NCBI GenBank assembly: GCA_018902385.1
Contig: JABSSW010000046.1
Span: 168,758-232,757 of the forward strand
DNA from: Physcia stellaris
Lineage: Eukaryota > Ascomycota > Lecanoromycetes > Caliciales > Physciaceae
DNA length: 64,000 nt
Direction: 5' to 3'
The position numbers and the translations under genes were made by a program. The notes under the pieces were generated by a model, which saw nothing but the letters and a program-made list of their open reading frames with translations, had not been told where the DNA came from and made no database searches. Of this stretch, positions 1,515-64,000 are shown piece by piece; the stretch's first letter is position 1, and the number at the start of each line of letters is the position of its first letter.

Positions 1515-3828
1515 TTACGCCGTCAGCGCAAGGCTCGTCATCGGCTTGTCCTCCTCTTCAAACAGGTAATCCAGCTCATCCTTGCACTCCTTGTTCTCAG
1601 GCAGCTCTGTTGTTGAGATCTCGGTAGTACTAGTGAATGATGTGTCTTCTGCTTTTGACGCCAATATTGAGGTTGTGGCGCTGGTGTCAGCATCTGTGGT
1701 GATGGAATGAGTTTCTGACTCTATCGCTGCTTTTGGGTGCTTGGTGTTTCCCGGCTTGCCAGCTACGTCGGATACTGAACTGACTGTCCGCTTGTGCCGA
1801 AGGCCAGAAGTAGTTGTCGTTGCCAATTTCTGAAGGATCTGATCTCTACCGCCGGCCTGCGGACCTTCAGCATACACATCTTCAAAGGAATCGAACTTCG
1901 GTCGCTTCATAGCCGCATGAGGCCTTGTGTCACATGCTAAATGAATGACATTAGTATCGCAAATCTCCGAACCGTGAACTTCAACTTGAGGTGTTAAGGA
2001 ATGAAACAGCTAGTACGGACTGACAGTCTCGTCCTGGGATTCTACATACCTGAACGTGAAGAGATAGCTTTAGCCTCCTTTGCTTTTTCTAACGACTGAC
2101 CGTAAGTCTTTGGAGGCAGAGCGCGAGACCTCTGCAAATTAGGTCCCTCGAATCGCGCCCACTCATACGCAACCTCCTCCATACATGGCCGGTCAGCAGG
2201 ATTCATCGCGATCATTCGACGAAGCAGGCGGGAGTAATGTGCAGCGGGTTCAGAGCTTGAGGCGCATTTCTCAAGAGCTCTGTACGCTGCTTCGAGCCAC
2301 TCTTTACTCTGACGATGATTACAGTTGTAGGTAGGCCACCGTTCAACCTCTGGGAGCAGGATAGTCGTCATTGCAAAACCAAGGGAGTAGACATCCGCCG
2401 GCTTACCATATTGGGTCTGACCATCAATCTCCGGTGCTCGTGTGGCGGCTGGTCCAATCTCTTCTGTACTGCTAGTTGACTTGAGAACGGCTTTGCCAAA
2501 ATCCCCGAGCGCTCCACTCAATGGAGGGCCGGGAAGGACGAACATGTTCAGCGTGGTGACATCGCGATGGAGGTAAGCGTCGACGTGTAGTATCCTCAAT
2601 CCTTCTACTACCCCTTGAAATACCATAACGATTAATGCAAAGCTTGGCCTGTCCTGGCTCCATCGCCAGAAGTCGACAGCTAACGGTAAGACCACAAAAA
2701 TCTTGTACGCCAAAGGACTGGTCTTTAGGAATCCTTGCATTTTGATTGCTTCTCCAGGGAACCAGGTGTTGCCTCGGTCGTCGCTAATCTCTTTGGCCTG
2801 TATCAGTCCTCTCCGACCCTAGACTATTGTCAATATTTTCATTTCGGCTGGATGTTACAATGCGTACCTGGTAGCTCAAGTAAATGGTCAGCTCGTTCAA
2901 CAAACCCTGCAGTATATATTCTCTATGGATATGCATTTCTTTGACAGCCCATGGTCGAGCAGTGGATTTTTCGACAGCTGCCCATACAGTGCCAAAAGCC
3001 CCTACTCCTAGCAGCGGATGGAAGACCATTGAACCAGCTTGTCGCCGATGGACTTCCCTTGGCAAAGGATCAAAACGCCCGTCCGGCTGACGCATTCCGT
3101 TGGTGTTCAAAGCAGTGTCGCGCAAAGTTACATAGTGATGTTGCTCCATGAGATTCATGATCCTAAAGACGAAAATGAATTGGAGCCCTCCGAGCTCAAT
3201 ACGCGTCCGGATATGGTCGAGTACATGTCGATGACCATTTCGGAGAACCTTCGCTTCTGCATTGACGAACACCGTGACCGTATGATTGTCATTGAGGGCA
3301 AGCAGATAAATTTGTCCAGAGTCTTGATCGATCTCGATCTTCACGTGTCGGGCAGCGACTCCTCGAGGATCCTTGCCGGGTCGGCCGATGAGATGTGTGA
3401 CACCTCTGGTAGGTCCAAACTTTGAGGCGCCCCGACCCAGTATCCAGCTACAATTTATCTTAGCATCCGGCTGACGACGAAATGCTACCTCGTAATCTCC
3501 CTGGTAGGTAAGTTTACGGGTGACCATGTCAGGCTCATAATCGCTGGTGTCTTCATCGAGGGGGTACACTTTCTCGGGATAATCCTGGAGTTCTGCCCGA
3601 ATGTTTTCTCGGAGCGAAGGGTGCAACTGCTGCTGGTATTGGCTAACCTCGTCGAATGTCCTAGCTGCGACCTCGTTGGCGGGTTCGATGGTGGCTATGA
3701 CGAATGGAAGAAGTGTGTCTATGTCTGGTTGCTGTGGTTATGATTGCTAGTAAGTACTAATTCACAAAACATGTACCAAGGACTACCTTATCTCCAGCTA
3801 CCTGGGATGGTGTCATCAATCTGGACAT
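1515..3828 (-). CDS. K1: FHA-like domain plus protein kinase, four exons
   Basis: Predicted 699-residue Ser/Thr-type protein kinase. Exons 3828-3777, 3724-2868, 2818-2050 and 1936-1515 keep phase at every junction and sum to 2100 bases. After a short leader comes an ATIEPANEVAARTFDEV segment shared with K2. An FHA-like region follows (about residues 90-206; GRGASKFGP, GVAARH). The kinase domain has a complete glycine loop GVGAFGTVW (about 257-265), AVK lysine (about 279), helix-C NEL, HRDVTTLNM (about 387-395), GDFGKA (about 408-413) and APEIDG. All catalytic residues are present, so it should be active. The C-terminal 160 residues are Ser/Thr-rich and acidic. FHA plus kinase recalls the Rad53/Cds1 architecture, but identity to that family is inference. 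Exon 1 is the least certain part. It is divergent from P1 at 4776. Confidence 0.85.
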
Positions 3829-4775
3829 GATGTTTAAGAAAGGCGTGTTTGATTGTAGACGTCGTGGAGGATGCTAAGTTCTGCTCTCTAGACAGCCTTA
3901 CTGAACAGGCTCAAGATGTGATCAAAACAGACCGACAAACATTCATGATCACCCTCGCTGACCACAGGGAGTTACCGATTGAAGAGAAGGAACCCGTAAT
4001 GATGAGAGAAGTTATAGATGAGGGTGAGTATTTAAATATAACGGTACATCCGATTACAGTGTGTTCGAACCCAGACACGTGGTAGCCTTGAGCGTTGACA
4101 GAATGGCAAACAGGTGTTATGGAGGTGTTATGATCCCATGGTCTGATGGGATGCGAGCGCTATGTCCATGCATCGCCACAAAGACGCCCACTATAAAAGG
4201 ACGCTCGCCTGACCGTGGCACATCGCGTGTGAATTGGACATGAAATGATCACAGTCCTCCGATTCCGCCCCAAGTCAGGTACATATAATCGGAGGTCTAA
4301 ATCGCACCATTGAGCACTAGGCCATGAGATATCTCGAAATGTGTTTTGGAATTCAGGCAAAGCATAAAATAGACTCGCACTTGATGGTATCATACTTCCA
4401 TCAATGAGAAGGACTATCGGTCAACTTTAGTGGTGGAACAACACCATGTATGAGAAGATGCATCACACTTGGAGAATCCATAGGCATATCAGGAAGTGAA
4501 TCCAGAACCCGTCAGTGTCAAATCATGACGTAGCCGTCAAGTGTTAAAAGACAGACACCACTCAATGAATACATCTCCTGGGGTTGTCACAAGCGATGTT
4601 AATTTTACACCCTTCTGCCCCACTTCTGTAGCCTCCTTCCTCGTTGCAACCATACCCGAATTCTGATTCTGTTCCCCAACTTTATTATCGGCCTCAATTC
4701 CAGCTTGTTCGGGCATTCAATTCGGCTCATTGATAACATAAAAGCAAGAGCTAGGACTCTTTTTCAAAGGAGAGA
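3829..4775. promoter_or_regulatory. Divergent intergenic region between K1 and P1
   Basis: About 950 bases separate the proposed starts of K1 (minus) and P1 (plus). No credible ORF lies in it; the short open frames at 3849-4393 lack domains. It must hold the promoters of both genes. An AT-rich TATTTAAATATAA stretch near 4029-4041 could be a core promoter element. I found no sequence clearly shared with the other three intergenic regions by eye. Confidence 0.5.
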
Positions 4776-6851
4776 ATGTCTCAACCTCTAGTCGACAAAC
4801 CTAGCTACCAGGAAACCTTCCATGCGAATGAGCAGAGAATGTCCACCAATGGGTCTACGAGCACTTCTATTTCGAGCTCAAGAGCTCCAGGCTACGATGA
4901 CTCCCCGCCAACGCTTTACTTTACCCCTGATGGACTGCCACCAAAGCCGCTAACACCCGGGGAGATCCTCCAAAAGGAGCGCCGACATGAGCGAGAAACG
5001 TTGCGAGTGCTTCTTGCGAGGAATGGCCTACCGCTTCCTGGATTCATAGAAAATGAATCTTTGGATAGACCATCGCCTTTGTGGGACCTTGGTATGGCCG
5101 AACAGATTGTCACTTATCACCGCGCGCTCCGAGACTCTGAAACCACTAGAATCACTTCCCTCCTCACTTCGCCTTACAATTGTGTTGAAGACATGGAGCC
5201 ACCATCGGAAGCACCTGCTTGCGGGTTGACTTCATCTCCTTCTTCCTCCCCGAACAGCCTGGACACTAAAAACCACCTGACCATTCAATTCGATGGCTCA
5301 AAACTGGAATCAGCCTATCCCTCCGACCCCGAAGCCTTCCGGCGACAGCGCCTTCACGAGCGTGAGAGCCTACGGCACTCACTAGCCAAACAAGGGTTCC
5401 CTCTTCCGGAGATGATCGAAAAGGAAGACCTAAGCCAGCCATCCCACTTGTGGTGTCCTAGCCGAGTGGAAGCCATAGCGAGATACCACCGTGAGATTCG
5501 CGATTCTAAAACCACCGTACTTCTGAGTTCACCATACTACTCCTATACGATTCCCAAGCCGCAAAAGCTTCCTGATACGGGAAAGCGCACCTCGGACTCG
5601 CCGCCACCTGACGCAAAGCGAAGGAGGACAGAGACGGTGTCTCCACAGCATGAGGATGAGACTCTACTATTGGACAACACCAATTCTCTCGCTACGGGTG
5701 AAGAAGTGCATCAAGTTAGTCAGCCCACCATCAAGGTCCCAACAGCGGCAGAAATCGGTCGAGAGGTGAGGAGGAGGATTACAAACGCACCTACACGCAA
5801 ACCAAAGATGACGGAAACCTTCATAAACCGTCGGCCAGCCAATGCAGAAGCGCATTGTGAGCTTCCTGAAGATAGCTCTCTGCTCAGCGCGGCAGAGATC
5901 CCGGCCATGAAGGACCAGGCATCAAAGTCAGAAGACCACTTGAAAACATACGAGGGACCGGACAGCATTAAGGCCGAGGACAATACTTCGGCTGATGCAG
6001 AAGCTCCCACACCTCACGAAAACATACCTTCATCAACCCTAAACGAACGAGACCCCCTCCGAGCGCCATACGACCATGTAGTAGGCTTTCCACCCGAACG
6101 GCCAGCAGAAGCAGAACAAAACAAGATTCATGTATCATGGCCTGAGCCATTCCGCGGACATTCCTCGATAGTAGGGGCATATGCTACTTTGCAGGAGGAA
6201 GACAGTCACAATAGTACAATACTCGAGCCGGAGGCAAACTTGGATGGAGACAAGCATGAAGTAGAAGAGAACGTAAATTCCTCAAAGGATTTACAGTCAC
6301 GGATGGCTTCGGTGAATGAGACGGAGCAGGTAGTTGAGAAGTCAAAGAGTCAAGATGAGATAGGCACGGATATTAAAGACCTTGATCGGGAGGCGGAAGA
6401 ATGTCATCAGGACTCTCAGACCCAGGACAATTGCTTGGGCGATGAAACCGATGCGCCAGCAGCCTCGACTTCTGGCTCTTACACCATACGCCCCTCAGAC
6501 TGGGAAGTAGTCGAGGAGATCGTTATTGCGTCTCTGGATGTAGCGACCTCCACACAACAGTATGAGGTGGAGCTGCTGGATGAGGATGAGGGTCAGGCTC
6601 GTGTAGTTAAAGAAGAGACACCCAGCTTTGCAGAATTCCCTACATATCCCGCTGCAGATGACAGTCTGGAGAACACCACCACAGAAATCCGTTCGCCAAA
6701 GAAGTCCGGTCGCAAAGATGGTAAATACGAGACGCTTGGAAAGGGCGTGCAGTCATCGAGGGTTCAGAAGGCTTCATTGCGGAAGCAGAAGAAGATCAAG
6801 GAGCACACGTCACTGAAGGCTATCAGACTGGAGCGCGCTTGTGCAATTTGA
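4776..6851 (+). CDS. P1: 691-residue disordered partner protein with tandem module
   Basis: Single-exon ORF starting at ATG 4776 (MSQPLVDK), the first Met of the frame. No named domain is recognised. The N-terminus carries LYFTPDGLPP (about residues 47-56). Two copies of a module of about 70 residues follow, at about 63-134 and 185-254. Each reads HERE(T/S)LR, then LA, G(L/F)PLP, IE, a PS-LW pair, YHR, RDS-TT and SPY. A basic cluster AKRRRTE (about 280-286) suggests nuclear location. AAEIGREVRRRI (about 323-334) has counterparts in P2 and P3. The C-terminal half is acidic and low complexity, ending in a Lys/Arg-rich tail. It is divergent from K1. A role as substrate, adaptor or regulator of K1 is inference only. 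Confidence 0.85.
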   Translation: MSQPLVDKPSYQETFHANEQRMSTNGSTSTSISSSRAPGYDDSPPTLYFTPDGLPPKPLTPGEILQKERRHERETLRVLLARNGLPLPGFIENESLDRPSPLWDLGMAEQIVTYHRALRDSETTRITSLLTSPYNCVEDMEPPSEAPACGLTSSPSSSPNSLDTKNHLTIQFDGSKLESAYPSDPEAFRRQRLHERESLRHSLAKQGFPLPEMIEKEDLSQPSHLWCPSRVEAIARYHREIRDSKTTVLLSSPYYSYTIPKPQKLPDTGKRTSDSPPPDAKRRRTETVSPQHEDETLLLDNTNSLATGEEVHQVSQPTIKVPTAAEIGREVRRRITNAPTRKPKMTETFINRRPANAEAHCELPEDSSLLSAAEIPAMKDQASKSEDHLKTYEGPDSIKAEDNTSADAEAPTPHENIPSSTLNERDPLRAPYDHVVGFPPERPAEAEQNKIHVSWPEPFRGHSSIVGAYATLQEEDSHNSTILEPEANLDGDKHEVEENVNSSKDLQSRMASVNETEQVVEKSKSQDEIGTDIKDLDREAEECHQDSQTQDNCLGDETDAPAASTSGSYTIRPSDWEVVEEIVIASLDVATSTQQYEVELLDEDEGQARVVKEETPSFAEFPTYPAADDSLENTTTEIRSPKKSGRKDGKYETLGKGVQSSRVQKASLRKQKKIKEHTSLKAIRLERACAI

Positions 6852-19721: not shown

Positions 19722-20150
19722 ATGTAGAAATTTGTTTAGCGCCATCATGGCCAGATTTGGGAGATAAGTTCGCACTTTGAATCAGCGTCAGATCTTTCTT
19801 TCTACATTGTACTTGTTGCTAGGTCTTGAAATGTACTTTTAGCTTTTTGACTACTGACAGAGTGATTACATGAATATTGCATAGAGACTTGGTATCATTG
19901 GAATGGAATATGTGAAGATCTAGACGGGGGAATTCCGTTGAAATCCTTCTCAGCTCTCAGATTCACACGCTAACACTGACTAGGATAGCTAAGCGAGGCT
20001 TGGCACGTTGCAGACTCACATGTAAATATCACTCGTACACTCCTACCTCCCTGGTCTGCAATTAACCAACGAACCGGATGCAACGACTGCATGTTGTTCT
20101 AACATCAACTCACTGCCAATAGTGGACAGATCTGCTCGGCGAACTCGGTC
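19722..20150. other. Intergenic, nothing seen
   Basis: AT-rich 3' flank of the metalloprotease and 5' flank of the DUF3632-type gene. No ORF or repeat noticed. Confidence 0.5.
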
Positions 20151-33844: not shown

Positions 33845-34720
33845 ATCTGTGATGGTGGGTTCAAAATGATCACAACGATTCTGGAGCTGACTGGCATAGA
33901 GTATGAAGATCGCTGTGTCAACGGAATGGAAGGAATAAGATATAATCGAAGAAAGCTGTTCTAGCAAGTAATTGGACTAAATTCTTAGAGTAGGTAGGAC
34001 GTGTAGTCCTTAAAGTACGAGGAAAAATGTAAGTCGGTCGTCGAACGTTCTACTCACTGGTGTCAGGATACATAATAACACTTCATTGTGTTGGCCGTCT
34101 GTCTGAGACTTTTATATATATAGTAGTTGGCGTGTTCAATATATAAAAAACCGATGTAAAGGAGGCTTCAAATCACAGATTCGGAACGAATTCGTGTTCT
34201 GCTACTAAGATAATGGTATTACAGAAACCTACTTTTTCAGAGTGTTGAGGGAGGAGATCCATTCATTGTGCTCTATCAAAGAATCGAAGAAAAGGTCGCA
34301 GAATATAGTGTGAGCCTCCCTGACGCAATGACATAAGATGTGATGGCGCTGTTTATTGTGACATAGACCGACATTCAAGACCTCGCAGCTTATTGAGTTT
34401 GGTGTTCTGACAAGCAGAGATTAAAGCTGCGAAACCCTAGTGCACCAGGGAATCATCACTCACGAGATGAAGCTATGCTAGTGTGATGTGTTAGAACAAT
34501 CACGGGAAATTATGCAGCTTACTAGCGCATTTTCATCGATTCGTCGATATCGAAGTTTTAACATCGTGAGACTTATATTCAGCCCCATTCATTGAAATCT
34601 TGGCTAAGTCCGCTCTCCCAGAATTTCAATACCTTTTCAAAACTCGAGAAAGTCCAAGTTCCTAGCATCCAACCTTCGTTGATCCTGTTAATCCAGCAAG
34701 AGCCGAAAGAAGAAAGCAGC
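33845..34720. promoter_or_regulatory. Divergent intergenic region between K2 and P2
   Basis: About 880 bases without a supported ORF. A strong AT-rich run TTTATATATATAG lies near 34111-34123 and a second AT-rich run follows at about 34138-34150. Either could serve as core promoter sequence for one of the two divergent genes. Confidence 0.5.
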
Positions 34721-35995
34721 ATGTCGCAATCCGACAGTGTTACGTTTGATGATCCCCAAGGCATCCACAACCCAATGCTCTATCCTCGCTTTGCTTCATC
34801 AATCGACGATCCATTCCCGTATTCTCCACTACCCACCGGTCTTCTATCTCCAGATCCGAGCGACCACGGTGCTAACTGGCCTCACACAGACTTCCCAGGC
34901 CTCGACTCGCACCCGTCGGAGTTAACCTTTTGCTCCGAAGAAGGGGACCTCTGGATGCGGCAAGGCAATCTACCACCATCGGAGTCAGAGGCAATTCGCA
35001 GGTATTATGACCAGCTACATTATTCGGCGCCATTCTGTCTCATGACTCAGCCGTTCTTTGACGACGGGGCTGGTAGGGTGGTATCAAAGAGGGAATTGGA
35101 GCCAGAGGTGGAGCCGCCCAAGCCGAAAAAGCGAAGAATGGTCGAGGATAGCTCGGTGTCGTCTTCAGGGTCTTCAAGCGCAGGGGGAAGTTGCGGAAGC
35201 GTAATGGTTCAAGAGGAGAAGAGTGGAGACACCGATCGTGTGTCATTCATCTCGACGGCTGCGGAAATCACTCGGATGGTGAGGCAGAGGTCAAAAGTCG
35301 ATCGTCATCATCGTAAGAAGAACATCAAAACCATCAAGTCTGAGACTTCGGCGTTCGTCGCGCAGACCAAGGCTACAGAAAACCCTTCTAGATCTAGTGC
35401 GCCCTTCACATCGTCTTCTAGCCCAATACGACCTCTCGAGCATCATATCGATGAAGGTACCACCGGCGAGAGATGCACGACGGCTATACACGACAAAATA
35501 CAGGAGAAATCACAATCATATAACGGAAGTCACCATCCGGAAGACGAAGAAGACAATGAGAAAGAAGACGACATCAATCCGGGATCGTATGATATGACAA
35601 AAGTACCAGAGCTGGAAAAAGAAGCTGTTCAATGTCCAGATGCCGAGGCTTCTACCAATATTCGGCTTCCAATCCGCTCAGACATCCCCCAGACCAATGA
35701 TCGGTACACAAAAATTCCGGAACTCACAGCTTCTCTAGCGAGTCGCCACCAAGAAAATACTCGACTCAGCGCCAAGTCCTTCAATCGCGAGAAAAGCAGG
35801 AAAGACAGCAAGCTCAGAGACTTACCGTTCAGAACCTCTAGAACTTCTTCCACTAAACCGCCAACATCGAAGGTTGCTGATAGCTTGAATACAACGATGT
35901 TTACCAGCCGGATGACCCGCTCAAAGTCCAGCCCCGCAGACAATTTTCTTGAGTTGGACAGAGCGGGAAACATTGTGAAGGCTCCGGCGAAGTAA
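34721..35995 (+). CDS. P2: 424-residue disordered partner protein
   Basis: The frame is open upstream to 34592, but the first ATG in a good context is 34721 (MSQSDSV, like MSQPLV of P1). The N-terminal box reads FPYSPLPTGLLSPDPSD, comparable to TPDGLP of P1 and P3. GDLWMRQGNLPPSESEAIRRYYDQL appears to be a degenerate single copy of the P1 module (LW, then EAI-RY). A basic cluster PPKPKKRRMVED matches the P1 NLS-like site, and TAAEITRMVRQRSK matches AAEIGREVRRR. Near the C-terminus SRMTRSKSSPADNFLELDRAG resembles a P3 segment. Otherwise it is Ser/Glu-rich and low complexity. No known domain is seen. Confidence 0.82.
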   Translation: MSQSDSVTFDDPQGIHNPMLYPRFASSIDDPFPYSPLPTGLLSPDPSDHGANWPHTDFPGLDSHPSELTFCSEEGDLWMRQGNLPPSESEAIRRYYDQLHYSAPFCLMTQPFFDDGAGRVVSKRELEPEVEPPKPKKRRMVEDSSVSSSGSSSAGGSCGSVMVQEEKSGDTDRVSFISTAAEITRMVRQRSKVDRHHRKKNIKTIKSETSAFVAQTKATENPSRSSAPFTSSSSPIRPLEHHIDEGTTGERCTTAIHDKIQEKSQSYNGSHHPEDEEDNEKEDDINPGSYDMTKVPELEKEAVQCPDAEASTNIRLPIRSDIPQTNDRYTKIPELTASLASRHQENTRLSAKSFNREKSRKDSKLRDLPFRTSRTSSTKPPTSKVADSLNTTMFTSRMTRSKSSPADNFLELDRAGNIVKAPAK

Positions 35996-45884: not shown

Positions 45885-47980
45885 CTACGCCTCATTGGCT
45901 TTTTCTTCTTTCTCGCTCTGAACCTTTAAAGCTGCAGCCTGAGGTTTCAAGGCTGAAGGCTGAACATGTGGGTCTCGGGATGGGGTGGTATTGAGGAGTG
46001 GCCCGGTCGCTAAAGCGGCCCGGATGGTCGCTCCTATATCGCCTTGAACAAACCATCCATCTGCGGGTACTGGCGGTGCATTTTCATCGACGTTCTTGTG
46101 GACATCAGATGAGATCCCTTTCGCAGCTGGAAGGTCTTGACCCGTCGAAGTTCCTTTGTGGACAATGTTGACAAATCCAGAGGTCCTCGCGACTTTGGTA
46201 GGGCGATCTTCTATTTCGGTTTCCGCGTCCGAGTCGGAAGGCTTTGTCACGTTTTTCGGCCACTGTTCAAGCACTTGTTCGATCGTTAATCTATGCGTCG
46301 AATGATACTGCAACATACCCTTGACGATATTCGCGAGTCGGCGATGGACACGTGACTGGGTGCCAAAGTCGTCGAGGTGTGTATGTACCTCGCGCACCCA
46401 GGTGCGGCTCTGTGGGCTAGCCCTATTGAAGGATGGCAAAGACCGGATCGCAGGGACGAGGACTCCCCCAATGGAATACCCGGCGCCCCAAATGTCAATC
46501 GACTTGGTGTAAGATCTTGATCCATCTATCTCTGGCGCCTGTGCGTCTTTGGGTGCAAGGCAGTTGGATGTAGCGGTCCCACGGAACGTCACCTTCCCGT
46601 AATCGATCACTGCACCGGTCGGGGGCTTGTGTGACATGACGACGAAGTTGCGAGGAGTGACGTCTCGATGCATCGCCTTTCTACCATGAATATGGCCTAT
46701 CCCTATTAGAGGCCCGTGGAAAGTGTCGATCAAGTCCTCAATTTTCCATTCCTTGATTTTGATTTTGCTGAAGTCATGTCTTCCACACTCGAAGACAAAG
46801 TAAAGCACATCAGGGGTCGAACAAGATTTAAAGGTCCTCTCCAAGTCGGCATAGTTGTCTGGAGTAAAAATATGGCCGTGCTCGCAGCGTACACAGAAAG
46901 TCTTCAGTAGTCCTGGTTTGCCCTTGTCAAGAAAAAATCTAATGTCAGTGGCTATCAACAAGGGTATTGAAGGGTATAGGGTACTCACCGAGAATAAGAG
47001 ACTCATCTTCGCTTCGTTGAGGGGTTCGGACCACCTGTTATCCTTGACAGTGATACTCTTTACTGCACGGGCCTCCCCAGTGGTTACATCTATACCAATT
47101 CCTACCAGGCCGAACCCCCCGGCCCCTATATAGCGGTATATGACGATGTTTCCAAGACGCTTGAGCGGCTTTTCTGTCGGTAGAACGGGAAGCCGAGAGT
47201 CAGGCGCCGCATGTCCAGCTTCTACAAACGCTCTATCCCGGACCTGACGAATGGTGTCGAGGGCGGCCTGCCCAGGGTTTGAGCAGTGGATTTCGGCTTC
47301 AATCTCGCCTACGATAATTCGGCTGACAAGTTGAAACAGTACATGCCACTGTCCAGCTCGGAGTTTGATGTAGACGTTCTCGTCCATGAAGCCAACAGGG
47401 TGTTCGTTGCTGAGTCCTCCTATCATGAGCACTCCGGTTGCTTGATGTAGACGGATGATCGCGTGCTCGCCGATTACTCCGCTCGGGTACTTATTAGGAT
47501 AGATGAGGAGTATATCGACCCCACGGGTCTCCCCGCCGGTCGAGCTGCCTTTACCGATCGATAGACCTAGAGCTGGCAGTATCTTGGAGGCGTCCATGTC
47601 ACCAAAAGTGATCTCGTACTTCGCCGACCACAATTGTCCAGGCTGAGGATCCGAAGGGTCTGGTTCCCAATCGCTCTCGTCAGGATCATCGATAACGTGC
47701 TTCGGCTCTGGGTGCCACGATATCAGCCTGGTTTCTCAGCAACCAAATATTTGTCAATACACATACCTATAGGCGAGACACGTAGAAATCTACGATGATG
47801 AGGGGAAACCTTATCGTAATTCCGCCCTAGATGGGTCGCGGCTTTGGTGCCAGGCTCGCCGATGATGACAAAAGTCGCAAGCACGTGGCTATGTAGCTGA
47901 GTCCAGGGATGATCATTGACCTGAGATAGTCTCCGCTTCCTCCAAGCCGACATTGCTGCCGGGGCTACGTAGTCGCTCAT
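45885..47980 (-). CDS. K3: FHA-like domain plus kinase with DYG motif, three exons
   Basis: Exons 47980-47767, 47707-46989 and 46922-45885 keep phase and encode 656 residues. The N-terminal segment NYDKVSPHHRRFLRVSPI is shared with K4 but not K1/K2. SDWEPDPSDPQPG then precedes the FHA-like region (LSIGKGSSTGGETRGVDILL, PSGVIGEHA). The kinase domain has GAGGFGLVG, AVK, helix-C NEAKMSLLFS with the conserved intron directly after it, HRDVTPRN and APEIDG. The metal-binding motif is DYG (VIDYGKV) rather than DFG, a substitution that can keep activity. The C-terminal 180 residues are low complexity. Divergent partner: P3. Confidence 0.85.
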
Positions 47981-48746
47981 ATTGATGGTATTGAATGATC
48001 AAACTTAAGCTTCGTGGTTGCGTCTTCGACTTGATAAAAAATTTCCGAGACCCAAGGAATTTGTTTGAGGGAAGAGTATTTCAGAAGGTATGGTGGCATT
48101 CTCAAATATATAGTATTTCGAGTCAGATTAGTGTACGGTTGGTGATGGGTATCGCATAGCCTCTAACACAGTATATATCGGTTGCGGCTCGAGGCTGTTC
48201 GTGTTTGGACTCGATTTCATTGTGGAAGATGTCTAGTGGTTCGCTGACACGGGCAAGTGTTGTTATGTGCTTTTATGTCTGTGTAAAGCAAGTCAATTGT
48301 ACAAAAACTAATGTGATTTAGCGACGAAGACACTGACTGCTACATTATAGGTTACTCACTTAGGAAGCCATGTGTTTGAAACTTTTTGCCACAGGATTTA
48401 GCAACATGTCAGATCTGCAGCCGATCCGTTGAACACCAACTTCCTGATTCATTGTATATCGAGAGTCTGGGTTGATGTTGTTGATCTTCACTCATTAACA
48501 TCACAGTTCACGGTGTTGGAACTGTTGCTGGTGAAACGATCTCCGAGCGTTCCGACCTAATTAAAGATATCAGCATCCGTTATTTCTGCTGCATCGAAGC
48601 TTTCAGCAATCAAGTGCCGATTTGCAATCTTCTCCCATTCTAGCCTTCAAGAGACGCATTGACGTTAATACTTCTGAGAACTCTCCAGCTACTCCGCACG
48701 CATCGATACCTTGACCGGCTATGTTGACCGAAGCAGAGTTGGATTT
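47981..48746. promoter_or_regulatory. Divergent intergenic region between K3 and P3
   Basis: About 770 bases without a supported ORF. AAATATATAGTATTTCG near 48104-48120 and AGTATATATCGG near 48171-48182 are candidate TATA-type sequences. An ATG at 48721 opens a 20-codon frame (MLTEAELDLWGL) just before the P3 start; it may be a short upstream ORF or an alternative first exon. Confidence 0.5.
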
Positions 48747-50555
48747 ATGGGGGCTCACTGGAGGCGCACCTTCGCAGCAGTAGGAGGTTTCAAAGAAGAA
48801 GCGGAATGGAAGCCTACCCTTAATGACCTCACGCCAAGCCCTTACTCCATAACCCCTGACGGACTCCCATCCCCCACTGCGAGCGATCACAAGAATGATC
48901 CTTCTCGACCTCATGAACCTCATCCCTGGGCCCAGGACCAGAAGATAGTTGGATATCCAACAGGAGCGGAACTGGTCAAACGCCTGGAGGTCGTGGAGCG
49001 TGAACAAGAGCGCAAGAAGCGTCATCGTCATAAACAGACTGGAGCAGGTTCTGGCTCTCATGATATGATGTCTGATTATGATCTTGACTGTATATTGTCA
49101 GATGGATCCAGTGAGTGGTCTCAAAGTGGCTCTGGGAACAAGACTCCAGCAGTCCTCGACTCAAAACTTACTCAAGATGAGCGATCGTTGGTTGAAAGTC
49201 TGATCGTGGAGTCAGAATCACATCCATCTCCAGGGTGGTTCGACACCCTCAGGGAAGAAGACATGGGACCGTCGGACCACTATTCGAACCTAGAGAGGGA
49301 GGGATCGCAAGATAGCCGTGATAGTGCAACTCCTGCAATTCCAGGCAGCCCTGTTTCCGAACCTACTCAAGCTCAGCGAGCGGCTCTTGAGAGTTTGCGT
49401 GACAGCTCACCACTACCCTCGCCAGACACGTCGTCGAACAGATCCACTCAGGAGAGCACGAAGACATTGAAACGGGATGTGGACTCATCCCCGTTGATAC
49501 AGCTCAAGAAACGGATGACAAGTGCATCTGATGGGCTGAAATCTTCAACCGCGCCCCTTGGAGAAGCTGCTTGTGGTACAGCTTCTCCGACGGCGCTTGA
49601 AGCCTCTGCATCTAATCCAGTCGGTGCTCTTGCTAGGAACGCCGGCATGGAAGTGCGAAGACGGTCCAAGAAAGCATCCAAAAGCAAGCGTAAGCAAACA
49701 GCCAAATTCGGAGCCGGGGTATCTCAGATAAGCACTGGCCATGATTCAATTGAGCAAATGCATTGCGAACCAGCTAATGAAGTCATGGCCACTCCCAATG
49801 GCAAAGGTACGCCAGAGATAATCTCTGAAAGATCAATTTCTCAACCGCAGATAACTGAAACACCATGTCCTACAGCCAAGACAGCGCTTCCTTCTCCTCT
49901 TGTAGATATGACTCCTACTGCCACTAATGGGGATGACTCAATTGAGGTTGTGGGTCATGGGTCGAAAGACGTGTTACCAGAACTTAGCAGGGATCAATCA
50001 AAAGAGAAAGGGGAAAGAAAGACAGATAGCAGCTTTCAAGGTCCTCTTTACCGTGAGACCATGAATCATCGAAGATCCCCACAAGTCTCTCGTCCCGGAA
50101 GGGAGAAGCAAAAGCAGACGGTGCAGGTCGTGATCTACCAGCCTTATGCACAACCAGGAAGCTCAAAAGCACAATCTTCCACCATGAACAACCCGAAGAA
50201 AACACAAAAGTCCCAAAAGCCAAACTCCCCAGCTCGAAGCACACGTTCCAAAACCGACCCCGACACACCCTTTGTACAACTAAACCAAAAAGGCAAACAA
50301 TCCTACATCGACCAGGCGCTCGAAGACAAGAAAGCCGAAGAAGAGGCAGAACGTCAACGAAAAGTGGAGCGTCGCTATTGGAGATGGCACAAGAAGCAGA
50401 AGCGGGAGAAGAAAAACATGCGGCGCGTTTGGAAGGAGTGGTTCGATGAGCAGGATGATGAGTTTGAGCGTCGGCAGGCGGCTAGGGGGAAGTGGTTTCC
50501 AATTTTCGGTTTTATGGTGGCTACGTGGGGGGTGCGCGTTGAGGTTGGCGGATGA
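48747..50555 (+). CDS. P3: 602-residue disordered partner protein
   Basis: The long frame has its first ATG at 48747. The N-terminal box LTPSPYSITPDGLPSPTASD matches P1 and P2. An alternative starts at ATG 48721 and splices 48780-48838 (59 bases, in phase), replacing the first residues. Basic clusters are SPLIQLKKRMTS and GMEVRRRSKKASKSKRK, equivalent to the NLS-like and AAEI-R boxes of P1/P2. STRSKTDPDTPFVQLNQKG matches the P2 C-terminal motif. The C-terminus adds a highly charged helix (EEEAERQRKVERRYWRWHKKQ, probable coiled coil) not seen in P1 or P2. No known domain is recognised. Confidence 0.82.
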   Translation: MGAHWRRTFAAVGGFKEEAEWKPTLNDLTPSPYSITPDGLPSPTASDHKNDPSRPHEPHPWAQDQKIVGYPTGAELVKRLEVVEREQERKKRHRHKQTGAGSGSHDMMSDYDLDCILSDGSSEWSQSGSGNKTPAVLDSKLTQDERSLVESLIVESESHPSPGWFDTLREEDMGPSDHYSNLEREGSQDSRDSATPAIPGSPVSEPTQAQRAALESLRDSSPLPSPDTSSNRSTQESTKTLKRDVDSSPLIQLKKRMTSASDGLKSSTAPLGEAACGTASPTALEASASNPVGALARNAGMEVRRRSKKASKSKRKQTAKFGAGVSQISTGHDSIEQMHCEPANEVMATPNGKGTPEIISERSISQPQITETPCPTAKTALPSPLVDMTPTATNGDDSIEVVGHGSKDVLPELSRDQSKEKGERKTDSSFQGPLYRETMNHRRSPQVSRPGREKQKQTVQVVIYQPYAQPGSSKAQSSTMNNPKKTQKSQKPNSPARSTRSKTDPDTPFVQLNQKGKQSYIDQALEDKKAEEEAERQRKVERRYWRWHKKQKREKKNMRRVWKEWFDEQDDEFERRQAARGKWFPIFGFMVATWGVRVEVGG

Positions 50556-50920: not shown

Positions 50921-51846
50921 AACAAGGTAAACGCCTGCAAACTGCAACAGCGCTTTATCGTAGGGTTAGGGCTGTCAAATATCACCACTTTCGCCACCAC
51001 CACCTGGCCGCTCTGTCACCACCACCATCGCTCTGTTGTACGAAACACCACATTATTGACAATACACGATTATACGTTGAAGCATTGATGATTTTGCGTT
51101 CGAATATACACACAATTACGTTCAAATCGCAAAAATCGAGCGTTTCGTTCAAGCAATTCTCAATTGATTCTTGATGAGATCAGCATTTTCACCTTTTAAA
51201 TCATATCATATCATATCATGACATGGCATGGCATGACATGACATATCATACAATATGATATACAATATACTGTATATTTTTTACAAGAATTCTTTTTAGC
51301 GCTTTTTCTTTTAACGTCGTTTTTGATTCGTCGGATGTCGCATGTCGCATATCGTTGATTGCATTATTGTTTCGAGACTTGCAACTCAACGAGACAGCGT
51401 ATCTATTACGAGACTTGCAATTCAATAAGACAGCGTGTTACGAGATCAACTACGAGACTTGATTCAACGAGACAGCGTATATATTACGAGACTTGCAATT
51501 CAACGAGACAACGTGTTACGAAATCAATTACGAGACTTGATTCAACGAGACAGCGTGTTACGAAATCAACGTGACAACAAGGTAAACGCCTGCAAATTGC
51601 AACAGCGCTTTATCTTAGGGCTGGGGTTACCAAATATCACAGCTTTTGCCACCACCTCCACCTGGCATTATCGCTCTGTCATCACCACGACTTTGATGCG
51701 AGACATCCTGACAATTCACGATTATACGTTGAGGCGTTGATGACTTTGCGTTCGAATATACACACAATAACGTTCAAAACGCAAAAATCGAGCGTTTCGT
51801 TCAAGCAATTCTCAGTTGACTCTTGACGGAATCAGCATTCTTCACC
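50921..51846. repeat. Diverged direct repeat pair flanking a short tandem array
   Basis: Copy A (about 50921-51193) and copy B (about 51576-51846) share AACAAGGTAAACGCCTGCAA, GCAACAGCGCTTTATC, GATTATACGTTGA, TTTGCGTTCGAATATACAC and AAAAATCGAGCGTTTCGTTC. Differences are mostly C/T or G/A transitions, as expected after repeat-induced point mutation, although a count was not made. Between them, about 51376-51575 holds five imperfect units beginning with GAGACTTG and containing TCAACGAGACAGCGT. Around 51200-51260 there is a CATATCATATCATGACATGG-type microsatellite. Confidence 0.75.
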
Positions 51847-56757: not shown

Positions 56758-59198
56758 CTACGTCGCGCCCCCCAACCCCGCAGTCAGCGCCAAATACCAC
56801 GTCAAGCTCGCCCCGCCATCAAGATACTGCGGATCGAACCCGGGCGCACTAAAAAACGCCCACGCAGTCTTTGGATCAATAAGCGCAAGGTTACTATACA
56901 ACACCCCCTCCACCCCCCCGTAACATTCGCCCTGCCACCACTGAAATACGTGTCCCACTCCTGCTGCACAAACACCTTATCTCTCGTATACCCCGAGGAA
57001 GGATTGATCGGCAGCATATGAATGCCCTGAACATACTCAACATTCCCCCCGAAATACGTCGTGTGATCGACTTTATTCTCGAACAGGATGCCCGTCACCT
57101 TGTTCTTGACAAAGTTGGCGGGGTGTACTGTATTATCGTCTTCCAACAGGAAGTAGTTGTCGAAAGCGCGTTTCTGCACCGCCAGCATGAGGTTGCCGCG
57201 CGCTTCCATGGCCGCGTCGCCGGTGACGTGGCCCCACATCTTGAGCGCGTAGGACATGAGCGCGTCCTCGGAGCTGGACTCTTCGTCTTTGCCGTCGGCG
57301 GAGTCGAAGAGGCCCTTGGCCCAGGAGTGGCCGTGGTACCAGTCGAAGGCGCGGGACTGCGGGAAGTAAGGGTCCAGAGCAGAAGGGTTGGCGGCGTCGC
57401 GGACGAGGCTGTCGATCCACGCTTTGTTGGTGCCGGCGGTGAGCCAGGAAGGGTCGAGGTAGCCGATGATGGAGGCCGCGTGGATGAAGTACGCGTAGTG
57501 GAAGTGGTGGTCGTTGTAATAAGTGTTGCCGAAGTCGGCGCCGCTGTCGCCGGTCACGTATGACGCTGTGGAGACTATGCCGCCCCAGAATGACTCGTAG
57601 ACGAGCGGGTACTGCTGCGTGTTGCTCGTAAAGCGAGCGATTGCGGCTTCGAGCTTCGCGAGCCCGGCGCCTGCGACTGTGATGTCGCCCGCAAGGTCGT
57701 GGACTGCGTAGATCGCCGTGGCGAATTTGCTGAGCGCTTTGCCGCTGTAGTACATGCTGTTGAGGTTCGTCTGCGCGTCGATGTCTTGCGCCAAGTCGCT
57801 CTTGCCGGCGGCGAGGATGGCGGCTTTGGCGGAGGCGGAGAGGGATGCGGTGGAACCTGTTACGGGGTCCCAGGGCGCGAAACCTATTGACGTTGGGAGG
57901 TCGGACTCGGTGAGGGTCCATGCGTCGCCGATCACGGCTGTCGCTATGCCTTTCGTAGTGCTTTGTAAGTTGATGGCAGTTATTGTGGCGGAGGATGTCA
58001 CGAGGGATTGGATGTGGTGTGGGAGGGCGAACATGAGTAAGCCCGCTGTATTCCCGGCACGTGTCCAAGTCAACGAGTAAGTGCCGGTCTCGCCAGCTAC
58101 CGATCCAGATAGCGTTGCACTCGTTGCGTAGGCTCCAGCGCAGGTATCGTATGTAGCTTCAATACTTGCTGCCGCTCCTGGGTTCTTGGCAATCTGGATT
58201 GTGCCTGAAAAGCGGCCCGGTGCTACAAGGCTGGAGGTAGAGACAGCCGTCAGACTTAGGCCAGTGCCGTTGTTGGATCTAGCATAAAGCAGCCAAGTGT
58301 TCCCATCCTGCAGAAGCATACGATACTTAGTCACGCCTGCTGCTGGGGAAGCGACGGGCGTGATGGTTTGGAAAAAGACATTGCTCTGTATATAGGGGGT
58401 GACGTCGTTATATATACCAGTGAAGAAGCCCATACCTTGTACTAAAGGAAATGTGATTGCAGGGGCTGCACCAGCCACAGTGAGTAGATTAGCATTTGCT
58501 GAGAAAGCGGTCAACGAGTCGGTTGTCAGTTGCGTAGTCGAGCTTAATTCAGTCGCCGACATGATGATAGACTGAATACCGAGAGGGTTTGTGTAGTATT
58601 GGACTGGATTCGCCGAGGCGTCAGGCCCAAAGGCCCGCTGCTTCGCATCGATGTGAGAAACACTCATGCCCCACGAACCGGCTGCTCCGGTGCCCTTAGC
58701 CCATTGCAAAGAGTAGGGTTGAGTCCACACTGCATTTGTCTGTGCACCAAGAAAGAAATTTGCATAGAATTTGTTGGTGCCAATCTTGCCGGCTTGAGCC
58801 GTGATGCCTTTCTTGGGTACTGGATGATCCGTCCGTGACCCAATGACGCTCGGTGGTGCGCCTGTACTGATAGGATTCGCAAAAATTGCGGAGACAGTTG
58901 GATTTGCAACTGCTTGAACTACCAGTGCTATTTTGGAGGTACTGCTGACTTCGATCGAAGATGTGACCGATACGGAGGACGTTGGAAACGGCTGAGTACT
59001 TGGGTTTCCGGAGGTTTCCAACGATGTCACCACTGAGCCACTTGTGGGTGATATGCTGGGTGCAGGCAAAGACTGGGTTCCTTCACTGAGAACTGCATTG
59101 GGGCTTGATGCTGGTGGCGCGACTGTGGTGGACGAAATTGGGATTGTCGCAGCAAAGCACAGTGAGGTTGAGAGAAAAAGGGAGGCAATGAATAACAT
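56758..59198 (-). CDS. GH81 endo-1,3-beta-glucanase, secreted, with one-base frameshift
   Basis: ATG at 59198 opens a signal peptide (MLFIASLFLSTSLCFA), then a Ser/Thr/Pro-rich linker to about residue 95. GH81 signatures follow: KFYANFFLGAQ, PYSLQWAKGTGAAGSWGMSV, YNDHHFHYAYFIHAASI with the putative catalytic Asp, and HSWAKGLFDSADGKDEESSSE with the conserved acidic pair. The enzyme hydrolyses beta-1,3-glucan in cell walls, acting in daughter-cell separation, autolysis or nutrition. The frame is intact until a run of seven C on the plus strand at 56913-56919. There, one missing base sends the reading to a stop at 56802. The other frame continues the family C-terminus (VLYSNLALIDPKTAWAFFS) to 56758. 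An error in the homopolymer or a recent mutation are both possible. Expected length is about 813 residues. Confidence 0.85.
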
Positions 59199-61195
59199 GT
59201 TCAAAGAGCAGTCAGAAAAGCAGTCGGCGGTCAAGCACTTGGCTGGTAAAAGAAATAGTATGATTGAACTTGCAATTCCCTAGTAAGTGGAGACAACATT
59301 CTTGGAGATTTGAACATGGAATGAAGATGGATCAGGACAACGAAGAGAATATATACACTATTCAAAAGGAAGACCGTGAGAGAGAAAATGATGAGAACGC
59401 AGCGGGTAACAGATGACTAGAGCACGAGACGTAGAGAGAAGAGGAGACAGCGCATTGTACAGTACATTGATGACGGCGGCATACCCCATGCAATTGCATG
59501 GAGCCATGGGCTTCAACGGACCCGACCACTTCCCGTAGGTTCATAGTCAGATCACCGGGCGGACGTGCCATGGGTCACAAGGAAAAGACAGCTTGAGTGC
59601 AAAAGAGCGAGCTGGAAAGTGAAGGAGGGTGTAGCATGTTCGGCCTTCCAATCCCAAGTGGAGAATGCCAGGCCTCAATCGCGTGTGAGATTACCCTAAC
59701 CCTTAGCGCCTCTCGCTTGCGCTAGCGTTCCCGCGACGCCAAAAAAGCCACCACCCCTTTCCAATATCACATGCAACTCTCCGATGGATGAATTCATCAG
59801 GTCCCGTCTCACTGCTTCGACCCTCGGCCGAGATGGAATGTGTGCGAGATCAAGCAGCTTCTATTATTGCCGTCTTTCGTCTCGTCCGATGTCAATAAAG
59901 CAACCCTCTTTTCTCATCTGAACCGCCGAGTCGACTGGACTTTCTACACCATGTGTGTAAGTCTAAGCATCGCATGTCAGATGAGGGGCATCAGATGGTT
60001 CCAAAGGAAAGGATGAACCTGGATCGCAAAGGGAGAAATCGGTTGCCGGTTGACAATTGTCAATGGATGTGGTCGGCCGAGCCCAGGGATGACTGAGGTA
60101 CAAGAGTCCCGCTAAGTTAAGGCTCATGACATTCCCCTTCATCTTAGGCACCTCTGACGCAACCGTTGCTCTGTCACCCACTGGATACCAAAGACTTCTT
60201 CTCCCATCCGTCCGGACATGGATCGTTCACTCCATCTCTTGATGCGGTGTGCTGCCTGTTAGCTCAACAGAGTGAACCGCGTGCACGATTTCAACCGGTT
60301 AGACACCGTTGTGCAACTCCACAGGAGGGGTCAAGGTATGGCCCCTAATCTCCGAAACCTGTATCCTGACCTTTTCACGATGAGGCACTTCAGTACATGG
60401 CTTGCTATCAATCACGCATGGTTACTAGCAACAGCAGAAAAAGGGACGTCACGTGAGTGTACCGGCTTGGCAGAGATTGTTCTAGATCGCTTGAGTAGCG
60501 CACCACACCCAAAGTCAAATTCAACATCATCTACCCAATCCTCCCTGCTTCATTGTATCTCCTGAGATTTCAATTGGTGGTGATTCTAGCCTCTCATCAA
60601 CCTTTGTAATGACTATTGCACTGTACCGTATAAGTTACTTCCTGCAGTCCTACTTCAATCCAGTCTTCACGACCCCATAGCAGCCCGTGGGTTGCAGACG
60701 GCATGCTCCGGTCGAGGAAAGAGCCACGACCATGGCATTAGCAGACAATACTTTCAATCACGTTGAAAAGCTCTCCGAGCCTAGGACGAAAGAGGCCAAT
60801 GACCATCTCGAGGTGCTAAGAATCGGGTCACTAATAATCGATTCATTGGGGTAATTCATCATAATATCATACAAGACGTGAGGATCGAGGGTGAATTGCT
60901 AATCGCTGTGTTGCCCTGAATACTCTGCGATTCTTGAGCGATCATATCATCACTGACTGCTCAGTAGTCGTCAACAGCCTGTCGGCTCCCCCTGAGATTC
61001 ATCGAATGCCAGCACTATCTCATCGCTCCTTTTGGTCTATTGATATTTGTGGTATGGATTGCGTCCAACATTGGGATCTACCTGGAGACCATCCGCCCAG
61101 GCCCAAATGTCGACATGGCTGCTTGAGCTCGAGGTTGAGCTGTAGCCTGGTTGAGTTTATCGATTTCAATTTCGGGGTCAGGCTGTTGGATTTCT
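59199..61195. other. Intergenic, one dispersed repeat copy
   Basis: About 2 kb without a supported ORF. It holds the repeat copy at 60442-60528. Around 59690-59760 the sequence has GC-richer, gene-free character. The plus-strand frames near 60934-61248 show no motif. Confidence 0.4.
60442..60528 (+). repeat. Dispersed repeat copy, related to 52385-52470
   Basis: Same orientation and order of blocks as the copy at 52385 (AGATTGTTCTAGATCGCTTG as the longest shared block). Similarity fades on both sides. Confidence 0.7.
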
Positions 61196-63105
61196 CTAGC
61201 CGTTTTTGGCCTTCTTTTCAGGTTGTCCGATGTTTCCGACATCTGTAATTCGAGGCCGAGCCCAGTCTGGTACAGGCCAATAGGTTAACAGATCCTTGAC
61301 GCTAGGTCTTTGGTTTGGATCGAAGCTCAACATCAGTCTGAGCAATTCGCTGACCTGCCTATGAAGAGGGGAAGTTAATTCGAATGTTGTGAGCTGACTA
61401 TTTGCCTCCAGGATCCATTCCCTCGTCTGTGGATGGTCCCGTTGATAATGTGCCCAGGTATGCAAGTTCGGGAAAAGAACAAGCAAGAAGGCGAACGCAC
61501 AAGACCAAACATCGGACCCATAAGTGTAGGGAGTCTTGCCATCGAGCTCCGGAGCCTGAGCGTAAAGTGGCGCACCACCAGTGAGGGTGTCTTTAGACTG
61601 CTTTTCCGCTTTCCCAAAGTCGCATAGCTTACCAGCTAGCCCAGGCATGACCACCATATTGTCATGCGTAACATCACGATGCACATAGCTAGAGTGGTGC
61701 ATGGCAGCAAGCCCTTGCAAAACACCCCAGAATATGACGACTTGGACACGTAAGCACCATTGGGAAACGCCGATGTGTCTAAAGCTGGATATGGCCAGAG
61801 GAAAGATCATATAAATTGTGTCTGGGCGAGCACACTGGGTAAAGGCTTTTCGAGTGTCTTCATGTTGACCTGGCCCAAAAGAGTGTCCATGATGACATGA
61901 TACGTATGACGCTTGAATAAGACCTGTCTCTCCCTTACAGGCTATCAGCACCTTCCCAAGGGAGGTTCAGTGAAGACTTACCGTGAATTTCAAAGCTACC
62001 TCGACTTCGTTAATGATCTCAGCTTGAGTAGCTGCATCTTTGATAAGGCAGGATTTCACGGCCACAGCATTTCCGGTATTGATATCTACACCTAGACTGA
62101 GGACGCCAAATCCTCCGGATTTTAGGTCTTTATAAATCTAAAATCATTTAAAAAGTCAGTCTTCCAGTAATTCCAGTTTACAAGCTGCCAAGATATGAGA
62201 AATAACGATTGATGTGCGAGTAGCAGCTACCACCGCAAATTACTACACGGGATGGAGAGAGTTAAAAGTACGTACCTTAACTGAACCAACTCGCCTGATA
62301 GGCGCCTGTAGGGGCAAGATAGGAATCCGAGGATCGGATGACGGAAGTCCTTGTGTGGCCAAGAAAGTCCGGCGCGCTTTTCCCCAGAGCTCAAGTTGGG
62401 CCAGTGCCATCCCGGACAGGGTAAATGTACACTCAATTTGTCCAATGAAGAAGTGGTTGACCCCGCATAGAGCATGCTTTTGGTTGACTCCAAGCGTTTT
62501 CCGTACACCGTTCTCTAGGCAGATTACTGGGTGATCATTGCTAACGCCGACTAACATAGGCCATGCAGTCTGAGGATGAAGTTGAATGACAGCATGTATA
62601 GCGAGGACACCTCGAGGGTGCTTGGTCGGATATATAATCAAGAGATCGACCCCCCGACTGGGACCGGCCGTCCTTAGACCTTTACTGATTGTAATGCCAA
62701 AGCGAGGACCTTGCGCTGCCTGAAAAAGACCGTCTAGGGATAATTCATACACTCCTTCCCATGTAACTCCGGGAGAGCAATCCGAAGGATCAGGCTCATA
62801 TTCGCTATCATAACCATCAAACACAGGTAGGTGGCCGTTCTTCTCTGTAAAGCGAAGAGTTAGTCATATCCGTGAATCATCATCCTCAGCGGGAGATTTA
62901 GTAGAATCCGCAATGGAGACACACCAACACGGTTCACGCGTAAGTATTGTCGGTTATGGAATGACAACTTATCATAGTTCTCGCCTAGATGTTGCATTGC
63001 ATTACGGCCGTGCTCGTTGACAAGCCGCACTCTCGCAAAAACCCCGGACTCCCGTCCAGGAATGCTAAGTGACTGAGTAGCTGTAGGAACGATAGAGGTC
63101 GCCAT
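61196..63105 (-). CDS. K4: FHA-like domain plus kinase, four exons
   Basis: Exons 63105-62925, 62844-62276, 62137-61982 and 61933-61196 keep phase and encode 547 residues. The N-terminus has NYDKLSFHNRQYLRVNRV and SEYEPDPSD as in K3. The FHA-like region includes ITISKGLRTAGPSRGVDLLI. An extra intron lies just before the kinase glycine loop (IYKDLKSGGFGVLSLG). AVAVK, helix-C NEVEVALKFT with the conserved intron, HRDVTHDN, CDFGKA and APELDG follow, so all catalytic residues are present. Unlike the other three it almost lacks a C-terminal tail, ending with a short basic EKKAKNG. Divergent partner: P4. Confidence 0.85.
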
Positions 63106-63640
63106 GAGGATTGAATCGCTATATCCCGGTTGTTTGTTCTCGATAAATTCGATTCAATTGATTCTTCAACAATGCAGAAAGGCGCCCTTCAGAAGTTTGG
63201 AAGGAAAGACAGAGGTTTGAAATGCTTTGATGATAAATATATATTCTTCAAGAGTTCCTAGGCCCGACGCCATGGCAACCTGTGAGAAGGAGAGCTTGAC
63301 ACAGTATTAGCATATCGGGGTTGAACACTTGCCCTTGCAAAATAACACCTGAATCATATGACATTTGACTTGTAGAAAACGGTGGGGTATGGTGATCACA
63401 CATGAAAGATGACACAGATCGAAGCGCCAAGAGATGAAGTTTAGACGCTCAATCTTAATCATAGAATCATATATATCAGACCACGCCCGCACTTCGCTCA
63501 AAGCTCAAAGCATGCATGCAAGCTGTCCCTCTATTCTAAAGAGCTTCGATCCAGCAAGACCAAGAACAAGGCTACTGACTACACTATCTATCTGTACCGA
63601 CCATTCCACTCCATTGACCCTATTATCGTGCACAGCAAAC
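63106..63640. promoter_or_regulatory. Divergent intergenic region between K4 and P4
   Basis: At 535 bases it is the shortest of the four divergent regions. ATAAATATATATTC near 63232-63245 is a candidate TATA-type element. No ORF with a motif lies inside. Confidence 0.5.
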
Positions 63641-64000
63641 ATGGTTATCGAGGGGAACCGAATCGCCCAGCTCCTAGTCGAGAATTTCTTAGAACATGCT
63701 GTCGCAGAAAGTTCGGGTAGAATGCATGAGACAGCTACCGAGCACGATCCATGTGTGGAGCTCTCGAAGCAGGCCGTGGATGAAACCCGGGATAGAGAGC
63801 ATGAGTCGGTGACTTCGACTTGTTCATACAATAAGGACGAAGGATACCCACGAGGCACTTACGTCAATGCATTAGCGCCAACTGACCTCCAGTACCCTTC
63901 CTGGTACATCGATGGCCCCGAGTCATTGGGATTAGATCCTGAGCAACGATGTCCTGCCGAGGCAAAGAACCCCTCAAAACCCGGTTTTCGTGAAGACTTG
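63641..64000 (+). CDS. P4: N-terminal part of a disordered partner protein, cut by window end
   Basis: ATG at 63641 opens a frame (MVIEGNRIAQLLVENFLEHA) that stays open for 120 codons to the last base of the window. It is hydrophilic and rich in Glu, Asp and Ser. The stretch TDLQYPSWYIDGPESLGLDPEQ sits where P1-P3 carry their Y-x-TPDGL box and is loosely similar to it. Assignment to the P family rests mainly on position: divergent from K4 exactly as P1-P3 are from K1-K3. The frame is the only long one on this strand here, and the competing minus-strand ORF at 63858-63505 has no motif. Confidence 0.6.
   Translation, partial: MVIEGNRIAQLLVENFLEHAVAESSGRMHETATEHDPCVELSKQAVDETRDREHESVTSTCSYNKDEGYPRGTYVNALAPTDLQYPSWYIDGPESLGLDPEQRCPAEAKNPSKPGFREDL

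Follow-up and report, generated by a model that had tools for sequence, protein, structure and literature searches.

Physcia stellaris carries on one contig (JABSSW010000046.1, here C46) an array of at least seven divergent gene pairs, each consisting of a gene for a protein kinase or kinase-like protein (K) and, on the other side of a short common 5' region, a partner gene (P). Four of these pairs, K1-P1, K2-P2, K3-P3 and K4-P4, were found in the window, by which we mean the whole 64,000-nucleotide stretch of DNA analyzed (C46:168758-232757; the assembly comprises 44 Mb in 147 contigs). C46 also carries three further pairs approximately 42-69 kb beyond the window. The seven kinases are of common descent, six of the seven partners are linked to one another by sequence, and the pairs fall into two kinds, distinguished by the catalytic residues of the kinase and by a TFIIB-type repeat in the partner. 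The array was most likely spread by local copying of the whole pair.

Arrangement of the gene pairs

Within the window each K gene is on the minus strand and each P gene on the plus strand. Splice sites for the protein models were chosen by eye among candidate GT-AG introns, six-frame scans for open reading frames (ORFs) were made on 276 kb, and whole-genome searches, which also took in C46 303501-393055, scored best candidates only. The features of the array in the window are as follows, with the expectation value (E) of the Pfam Pkinase match given for each kinase and with NLS standing for nuclear localization signal.

1..361, plus strand: part of P0, a short orphan P-like ORF (full extent C46 168447-169118, starting 310 bases before the window)
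2042..3828, minus strand: K1, FHA-like domain and protein kinase; Pkinase E 3.5e-14, catalytic residues kept
3829..4775: common K1/P1 5' region, 947 bp
4776..6851, plus strand: P1, ORF, largely disordered; one block is duplicated internally, and KRRR is NLS-like; similarity to P2
31613..33844, minus strand: K2, FHA-like domain and kinase; Pkinase E 7.6e-13, DPG in place of DFG
33845-34720: common 5' region of pair 2
34721..35995, plus strand: P2, disordered, carrying the motifs SPDPSDHG and TRSK..FLELD..G as well as NLS-like KKRR; identified by ORF, shuffles and motifs
45885..47980, minus strand: K3, FHA-like domain and kinase; Pkinase E 1.7e-18, splice donor GTGAGT, DYG in place of DFG
47981-48746: common 5' region of pair 3
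48747..50555, plus strand: P3, disordered, with SPTASDHK and TRSK..FVQLN..G motifs; identified by motif and by comparison with P7 (0/300 shuffles)
61196..63105, minus strand: K4, FHA-like domain and kinase; Pkinase E 1.2e-19, catalytic residues kept
~63106-63640: common 5' region of pair 4
63641..64000, plus strand: P4, divergent ORF open at the window end; no link to the other P proteins found within 120 amino acids

Start-to-start gaps were 947, 876 and 766 bp for pairs 1 to 3 and ~535 bp for pair 4, the last derived by hand from the inferred K4 start. The first-pass annotation had described just such an arrangement, with 0.5-1 kb between the two genes, and all four pairs conformed to it. 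Searches of the genome of origin with K2 and K3 located K5 (C46 277.5-279.6 kb, plus strand), K6 (286.9-289.1 kb, plus strand) and K7 (297.1-299.0 kb, minus strand). Each had a divergent gene in the P position, namely P5 from 276.8 to 275.2 kb and P6 from 286.3 to 284.65 kb, both on the minus strand, and P7 at 299.65-301.3 kb on the plus strand, with gaps of 883, 769 and 663 bp, respectively. K5/P5 and K6/P6 each lie inverted as a whole pair. The array may include additional pairs in the 27.5 kb directly following the window (C46 232758-260257), which reads as N. A divergent neighbor in the P position was found for 7/7 kinases, and 6/7 partners were linked by sequence, which agrees with the earlier proposal that the pair duplicates as a unit. 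The one partner outside this linkage was P4, for which only the ~120 codons in the window were compared. When the gaps were searched for common promoter words, with the pair 4 region including the K4 5' exon, GTGTCAA, present in 6/7 gaps, stood out against all sequence chunks but was rejected, being equalled by 2/60 random GC-matched sets.

Kinase genes

The Pfam Pkinase domain was clear in K1-K4 (best-exon E 7.6e-13 to 1.2e-19), and tblastn of these four against one another over C46 gave E values from 2e-9 to 5e-86. All seven kinases could be aligned over an N-terminal beta-rich domain and the kinase domain, and long open frames were retained in each, with GT-AG introns joining most. Identities between kinases were only ~19-41%. 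A maximum-likelihood tree separated K1-K4 from K5-K7 with support of 100/99, K5 and K6 forming long branches; the K3 and K4 rows of this tree were without the N-terminal block described below, and it did not fix the branching order inside K5-K7. The four window kinases are therefore paralogues, as first proposed, and form a single clade. When the genome was searched at E up to 1 with K2 exon 1, which encodes the N-terminal domain together with the first part of the kinase domain, the seven matches listed, from best candidates only, were K1-K7, with no eighth place among them. Five matches to K3 were obtained on other contigs, in the kinase core only.

The intron position noted earlier as shared in the window was common to the wider family, since 7/7 kinases have a splice donor at one position, which reads GTACGC in K1 and GTRNGT in the other six. 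A fitting acceptor for this donor was found by script in K1, K2, K5 and K6. K1 was modeled with exons 3737-2784 and 2818-2042, an intron of 49 bp and an inferred short first exon near 3828, and likely has a tail exon at 2009-1515. For K2 the exons were 33724-32804 and 32791-31613, with an intron of 60 bp and a short first exon inferred near 33844. The first exons of K3 and K4 are in a different frame, that of K3 from ~47980 as inferred from its N-terminal block and that of K4 with an inferred start near 63105; an additional 111-bp intron was also inferred in K4. Basic patches were seen by eye downstream of the kinase domain.

The two branches of the tree differed in their catalytic residues. 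In K1-K4 (4/4) the lysine of VAIK, the aspartates of HRD and of the DFG position (in DFG, DPG, DYG and DFG, respectively) and APE are all present, while the set was incomplete in K5-K7 (3/3). K5 has HGR and has lost the DFG aspartate, and so is without both catalytic aspartates; K6 is without all four of the VAIK lysine, HRD aspartate, DFG aspartate and APE; and K7 retains HRD without the DFG aspartate. A kinase-substrate relationship, which had been offered as one explanation of the pairs, would therefore be possible for K1-K4 but does not hold as a general rule.

N-terminal domain of the kinases

An additional N-terminal block was common to K1-K4; K3 and K4 have it on a preceding exon. In pairwise comparisons its score was reached by 0/500 shuffles for K1-K2, K3-K4 and K1-K3, by 13/500 for K2-K3, and by 72/500 for both K1-K4 and K2-K4. 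The common kinase N-terminus of the first-pass annotation is thus supported by these alignments, but its likeness appears faint between the two sub-clades.

For the designation of the domain as FHA-like the results were mixed. The low-confidence structure model of K2 exon 1 matched FHA structures (Foldseek, VIA), whereas none of the seven domain pieces gave a Pfam FHA match with the E limit set at 10. The arginine of the FHA consensus was kept in K1 and K2 only, in both of which the consensus serine is alanine. A model of whole K3 had a mean predicted local distance difference test (pLDDT) score of 47.7 and served for a rough look only. The kinase N-terminal domain may function as an FHA domain.

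Partner proteins

No Pfam family was matched above cut-off in P1-P3. By charge-hydropathy, P1-P3 had 87-88% of their 51-residue stretches on the disordered side, as compared to 80% for P5, 55-56% for P6 and P7, and 4-39% for the kinases. The earlier description of the partners as low-complexity basic/acidic proteins is only partly adequate, since P5-P7 carry NLS-like basic blocks and end in a TFIIB repeat. In P7 the middle exon reads KRKR..DDD..KR.R followed by LVTWL. As this exon shows similarity to P6 (0/500 shuffles) and P5 (4/500), with P6-P5 weaker (52/500), the P7 gene model is supported. The basic blocks suggest that the P proteins are probably nuclear.

The P proteins were compared in all 28 combinations against shuffles of local composition, with the TFIIB parts of P5-P7 removed beforehand and P7 taken without its middle exon. 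P0-P1, P3-P7 and P6-P7 were reached by 0/300 shuffles, P1-P2 by 1/300, P2-P7 by 3/300 and P2-P6 by 5/300, while the remaining 22/28 comparisons were equalled by at least 19/300. The central block shared by P1 and P2 was matched by 0/500 shuffles. Over C46, tblastn gave E values of 0.001 for P2 to P1, 0.043 for P1 to P2 and 0.038 for P3 to P7. Whole-genome searches gave 3.4e-7 for P7 to P6, 0.64 for P7 to P3 and 0.70 for P3 to P7; with P1 as query, P0 was found at 0.02 and P2 was not among the matches listed. P0 carries the duplicated block of P1 (tblastn E 8e-5), and no kinase partner was found for it upstream by tblastn with the kinases.

Two motifs added to this linkage. The pattern TRSK.{3,6}[FYW][ILVF].[LIVM][DNE].{1,3}G had four matches in six-frame ORFs of at least 25 amino acids over the 276 kb, these being P2, P3, P6 and P7, with 0.0 expected from 20 shuffles; SP.{1,2}S[DE]H[GK] likewise had four matches, in the same four proteins, with 0.15 expected. 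Both motifs were picked after the proteins had been viewed, and the counts are therefore descriptive. P1-P3 and P5-P7 appear to form a chain of weak similarities lying above chance. Among P1-P3, for which shared short motifs had been noted previously, P1 was linked directly to P2, and P2 to P3 through the TRSK motif, but direct comparison of P1 with P3 (44/300) and of P2 with P3 (79/300) was within chance.

TFIIB repeat in P5 to P7

The last exons of P5, P6 and P7 matched the TFIIB repeat profile PF00382 with E values of 2.2e-8, 0.0013 and 4.4e-5, respectively. P5 (34.4 bits) and P7 (23.9 bits) were over the cut-off of 23.6 bits and P6 (19.1 bits) was under it. The solved-structure relatives listed were TFIIB in 8/8 cases for P5 and 6/6 for P7. 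There was one TFIIB cyclin-fold stretch per protein rather than two in tandem, and neither the repeat nor a relic of it was detected near P1-P3 with two profiles. That P5, P6 and P7 each end in a single repeat of this kind, as predicted from these profile matches, is new here. The pairs can accordingly be assigned, on present gene models, to two states: K1-K4 with predicted catalytic residues and P1-P3 without a detectable repeat, and K5-K7 with incomplete residues and partners with the repeat. Because the kinase tree has one split between these groups, the contrast counts as a single observation and not as seven independent ones.

Outside the array the best match to P7 was a gene on contig C5 (1.2e-7). 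Other TFIIB-family matches in the genome comprised two-repeat genes on C5 and C2, which we take to be TFIIB and BRF1, three single matches on C12 and one on C43. The C43 match was set aside, as it resembles what we take to be an ordinary cyclin C gene. The three single-repeat matches on C12 lie in C12:605698-608910 and C12:626121-626327; two ORFs in the former interval (284 and 300 codons between stops) point apart with ~2.3 kb between them, and no kinase was seen by eye in the 6 kb inspected around these two.

Relation to known protein families

FHA kinases and TFIIB repeats are kinds of component that are already known; to our knowledge, no named system has this kinase/partner pairing. The array kinases differ from the FHA kinases Rad53, Chk2 and Mek1 in that the FHA domain is not recognizable at the sequence level and has a fold match on a low-confidence model only, and in that three of the seven are without catalytic residues. 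The ten Pfam FHA matches of the genome were all on contigs other than C46. A kinase-profile search of the array placed MAPK, PLK3, STK24, PAK and CASK structures, and neither Chk2 nor Rad53, in the best 60 of 2603. FunK1 kinases (PF17667) are fungal, multi-copy and divergent, and the array kinases are alike in this; in a scan of K1-K4, FunK1 scored 13.3 bits in K1 and 17.0 in K2, below the cut-off of 24.1 and around the HRD motif only, and was not listed for K3 or K4. P5-P7 share the TFIIB cyclin-fold repeat with TFIIB and BRF1, and differ from these in having one repeat instead of two, a large disordered part and a kinase gene as pair. They differ also in the zinc ribbon: with an E limit of 1, Pfam matched nothing in the P7 middle exon or in the first-exon pieces of the three proteins.

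Neighboring genes

The window contains introns and genes of the HET, GH81 and Kelch types, in keeping with a filamentous fungus. A HET-domain gene (41565-42203, plus strand; PF06985, E 3.9e-23) lies between pairs 2 and 3 and adjoins an APH-type phosphotransferase gene at 42504-43346 on the minus strand. A long ORF at 56802-59279 (minus strand) carries both GH81 glycosyl hydrolase domains (PF17652, PF03639) almost end to end, and an ORF at 18595-19767 (plus strand) had a sub-threshold match to Aspzincin, a lysine-specific metallo-endopeptidase (19.0 versus 30 bits). Repetitive peptide frames (RDSVLRNQLRDLIQRDS etc.) follow P3 at 51259-51571 (plus strand) in a stretch of ~44% GC. Beyond the window, C46 270000-274000 has lysine/asparagine/phenylalanine-rich frames by eye, as in AT-rich repeat DNA altered by repeat-induced point mutation.

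Discussion

The reading we favor, tentatively and at a little under even chances, is that each pair encodes a kinase or pseudokinase scaffold and a nuclear, transcription-linked partner dedicated to it, the two genes having been duplicated together. In K an FHA-like domain would precede a protein kinase, and P would consist of fast-diverging, largely disordered and NLS-like sequence with, in P5-P7, a terminal TFIIB-type cyclin-fold repeat. The two genes, with their 5' region in common, would be made together, and in the nucleus K would act on its own P or hold it; K1-K4 would do so by phosphorylation and K5-K7 as scaffolds or competitors. P might then make contact with the transcription machinery, TBP or DNA, directly in partners that have the TFIIB repeat and through short linear motifs in the others. 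Co-expression, binding of K to P, phosphorylation and any transcriptional effect are all what we infer from the genes. A bolder form of this proposal would be a previously undescribed two-gene signaling module of an FHA-fold (pseudo)kinase and a dedicated divergent TFIIB-like partner. Each pair would rewire part of transcription, and the array would have diversified into pairs with a catalytic kinase, which do not have the repeat, and pairs with a pseudokinase, which do; this we consider rather doubtful.

Several observations weigh against the favored reading. No common promoter word beyond chance was found in the gaps (the best 7-mers were matched by 2/60 and the best 8-mers by 2/60 GC-matched random sets), P3 is tied to P1 and P2 only indirectly, via P7 and the TRSK motif, and P0 and the C12 genes indicate that the parts can occur alone. 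Copying of an unneeded neighbor is, moreover, a fair rival. K and P would on that account be adjacent merely through repeated copying of an ancestral segment that held two unrelated genes with no joint function. Local segmental duplication alone accounts for the array, and the 22 P-P comparisons within chance, like the lack of a common promoter word, are as it would have them. However, the divergent order has been held in all seven pairs at the low identities recorded between the kinases, and loss or replacement of an unneeded neighbor would be expected in some of them. We regard this explanation as unlikely, though the most probable of the rivals.

A module for self/non-self recognition (heterokaryon incompatibility) or genetic conflict, in which mismatched fast-evolving products trigger a response, seems improbable. 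Such a module would suit an array of paralogues with very divergent members and kinases that have lost catalytic residues, and a HET-domain gene does lie between pairs 2 and 3. HET genes are nevertheless common in filamentous fungi, no other recognizable domain was found in the scanned K and P pieces, and the data are from one genome. The sole evidence for the first-pass suggestion of a self-recognition module kept near HET genes was that one HET-domain gene among the scanned window ORFs. Equally improbable is a decaying gene family in which many pairs are relics of little or no function. The lost catalytic residues of K5-K7, the short orphan P0, a K4 readable only with an extra intron and the AT-rich appearance by eye of C46 270-274 kb would all fit decay, but P1-P3, P6 and the seven K genes have all retained long open frames, most of which GT-AG introns join. 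Least probable of all is a complex like that of a cyclin-dependent kinase and cyclin, in which P, through its cyclin-fold repeat, would bind the kinase and control it, for while TFIIB repeats and cyclin boxes have a common fold and the repeat lies in the partner of a kinase, it occurs only beside K5-K7, which are without catalytic residues, and not beside K1-K3, and its solved matches are TFIIB and not cyclins.

If the pairs do cooperate as kinase or scaffold and dedicated partner, this would be a case of a kinase and a transcription-factor-like partner duplicating jointly, with seven such sets in a single genome that differ in how far they have changed. They would also provide a natural series for the change from kinase to pseudokinase together with the partner, and show a general-transcription-factor repeat being drawn into a fast-evolving system of its own. 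The contrast of kinases with catalytic residues, whose partners show no repeat, and kinases that have lost such residues, whose partners have it, makes a directly testable prediction.

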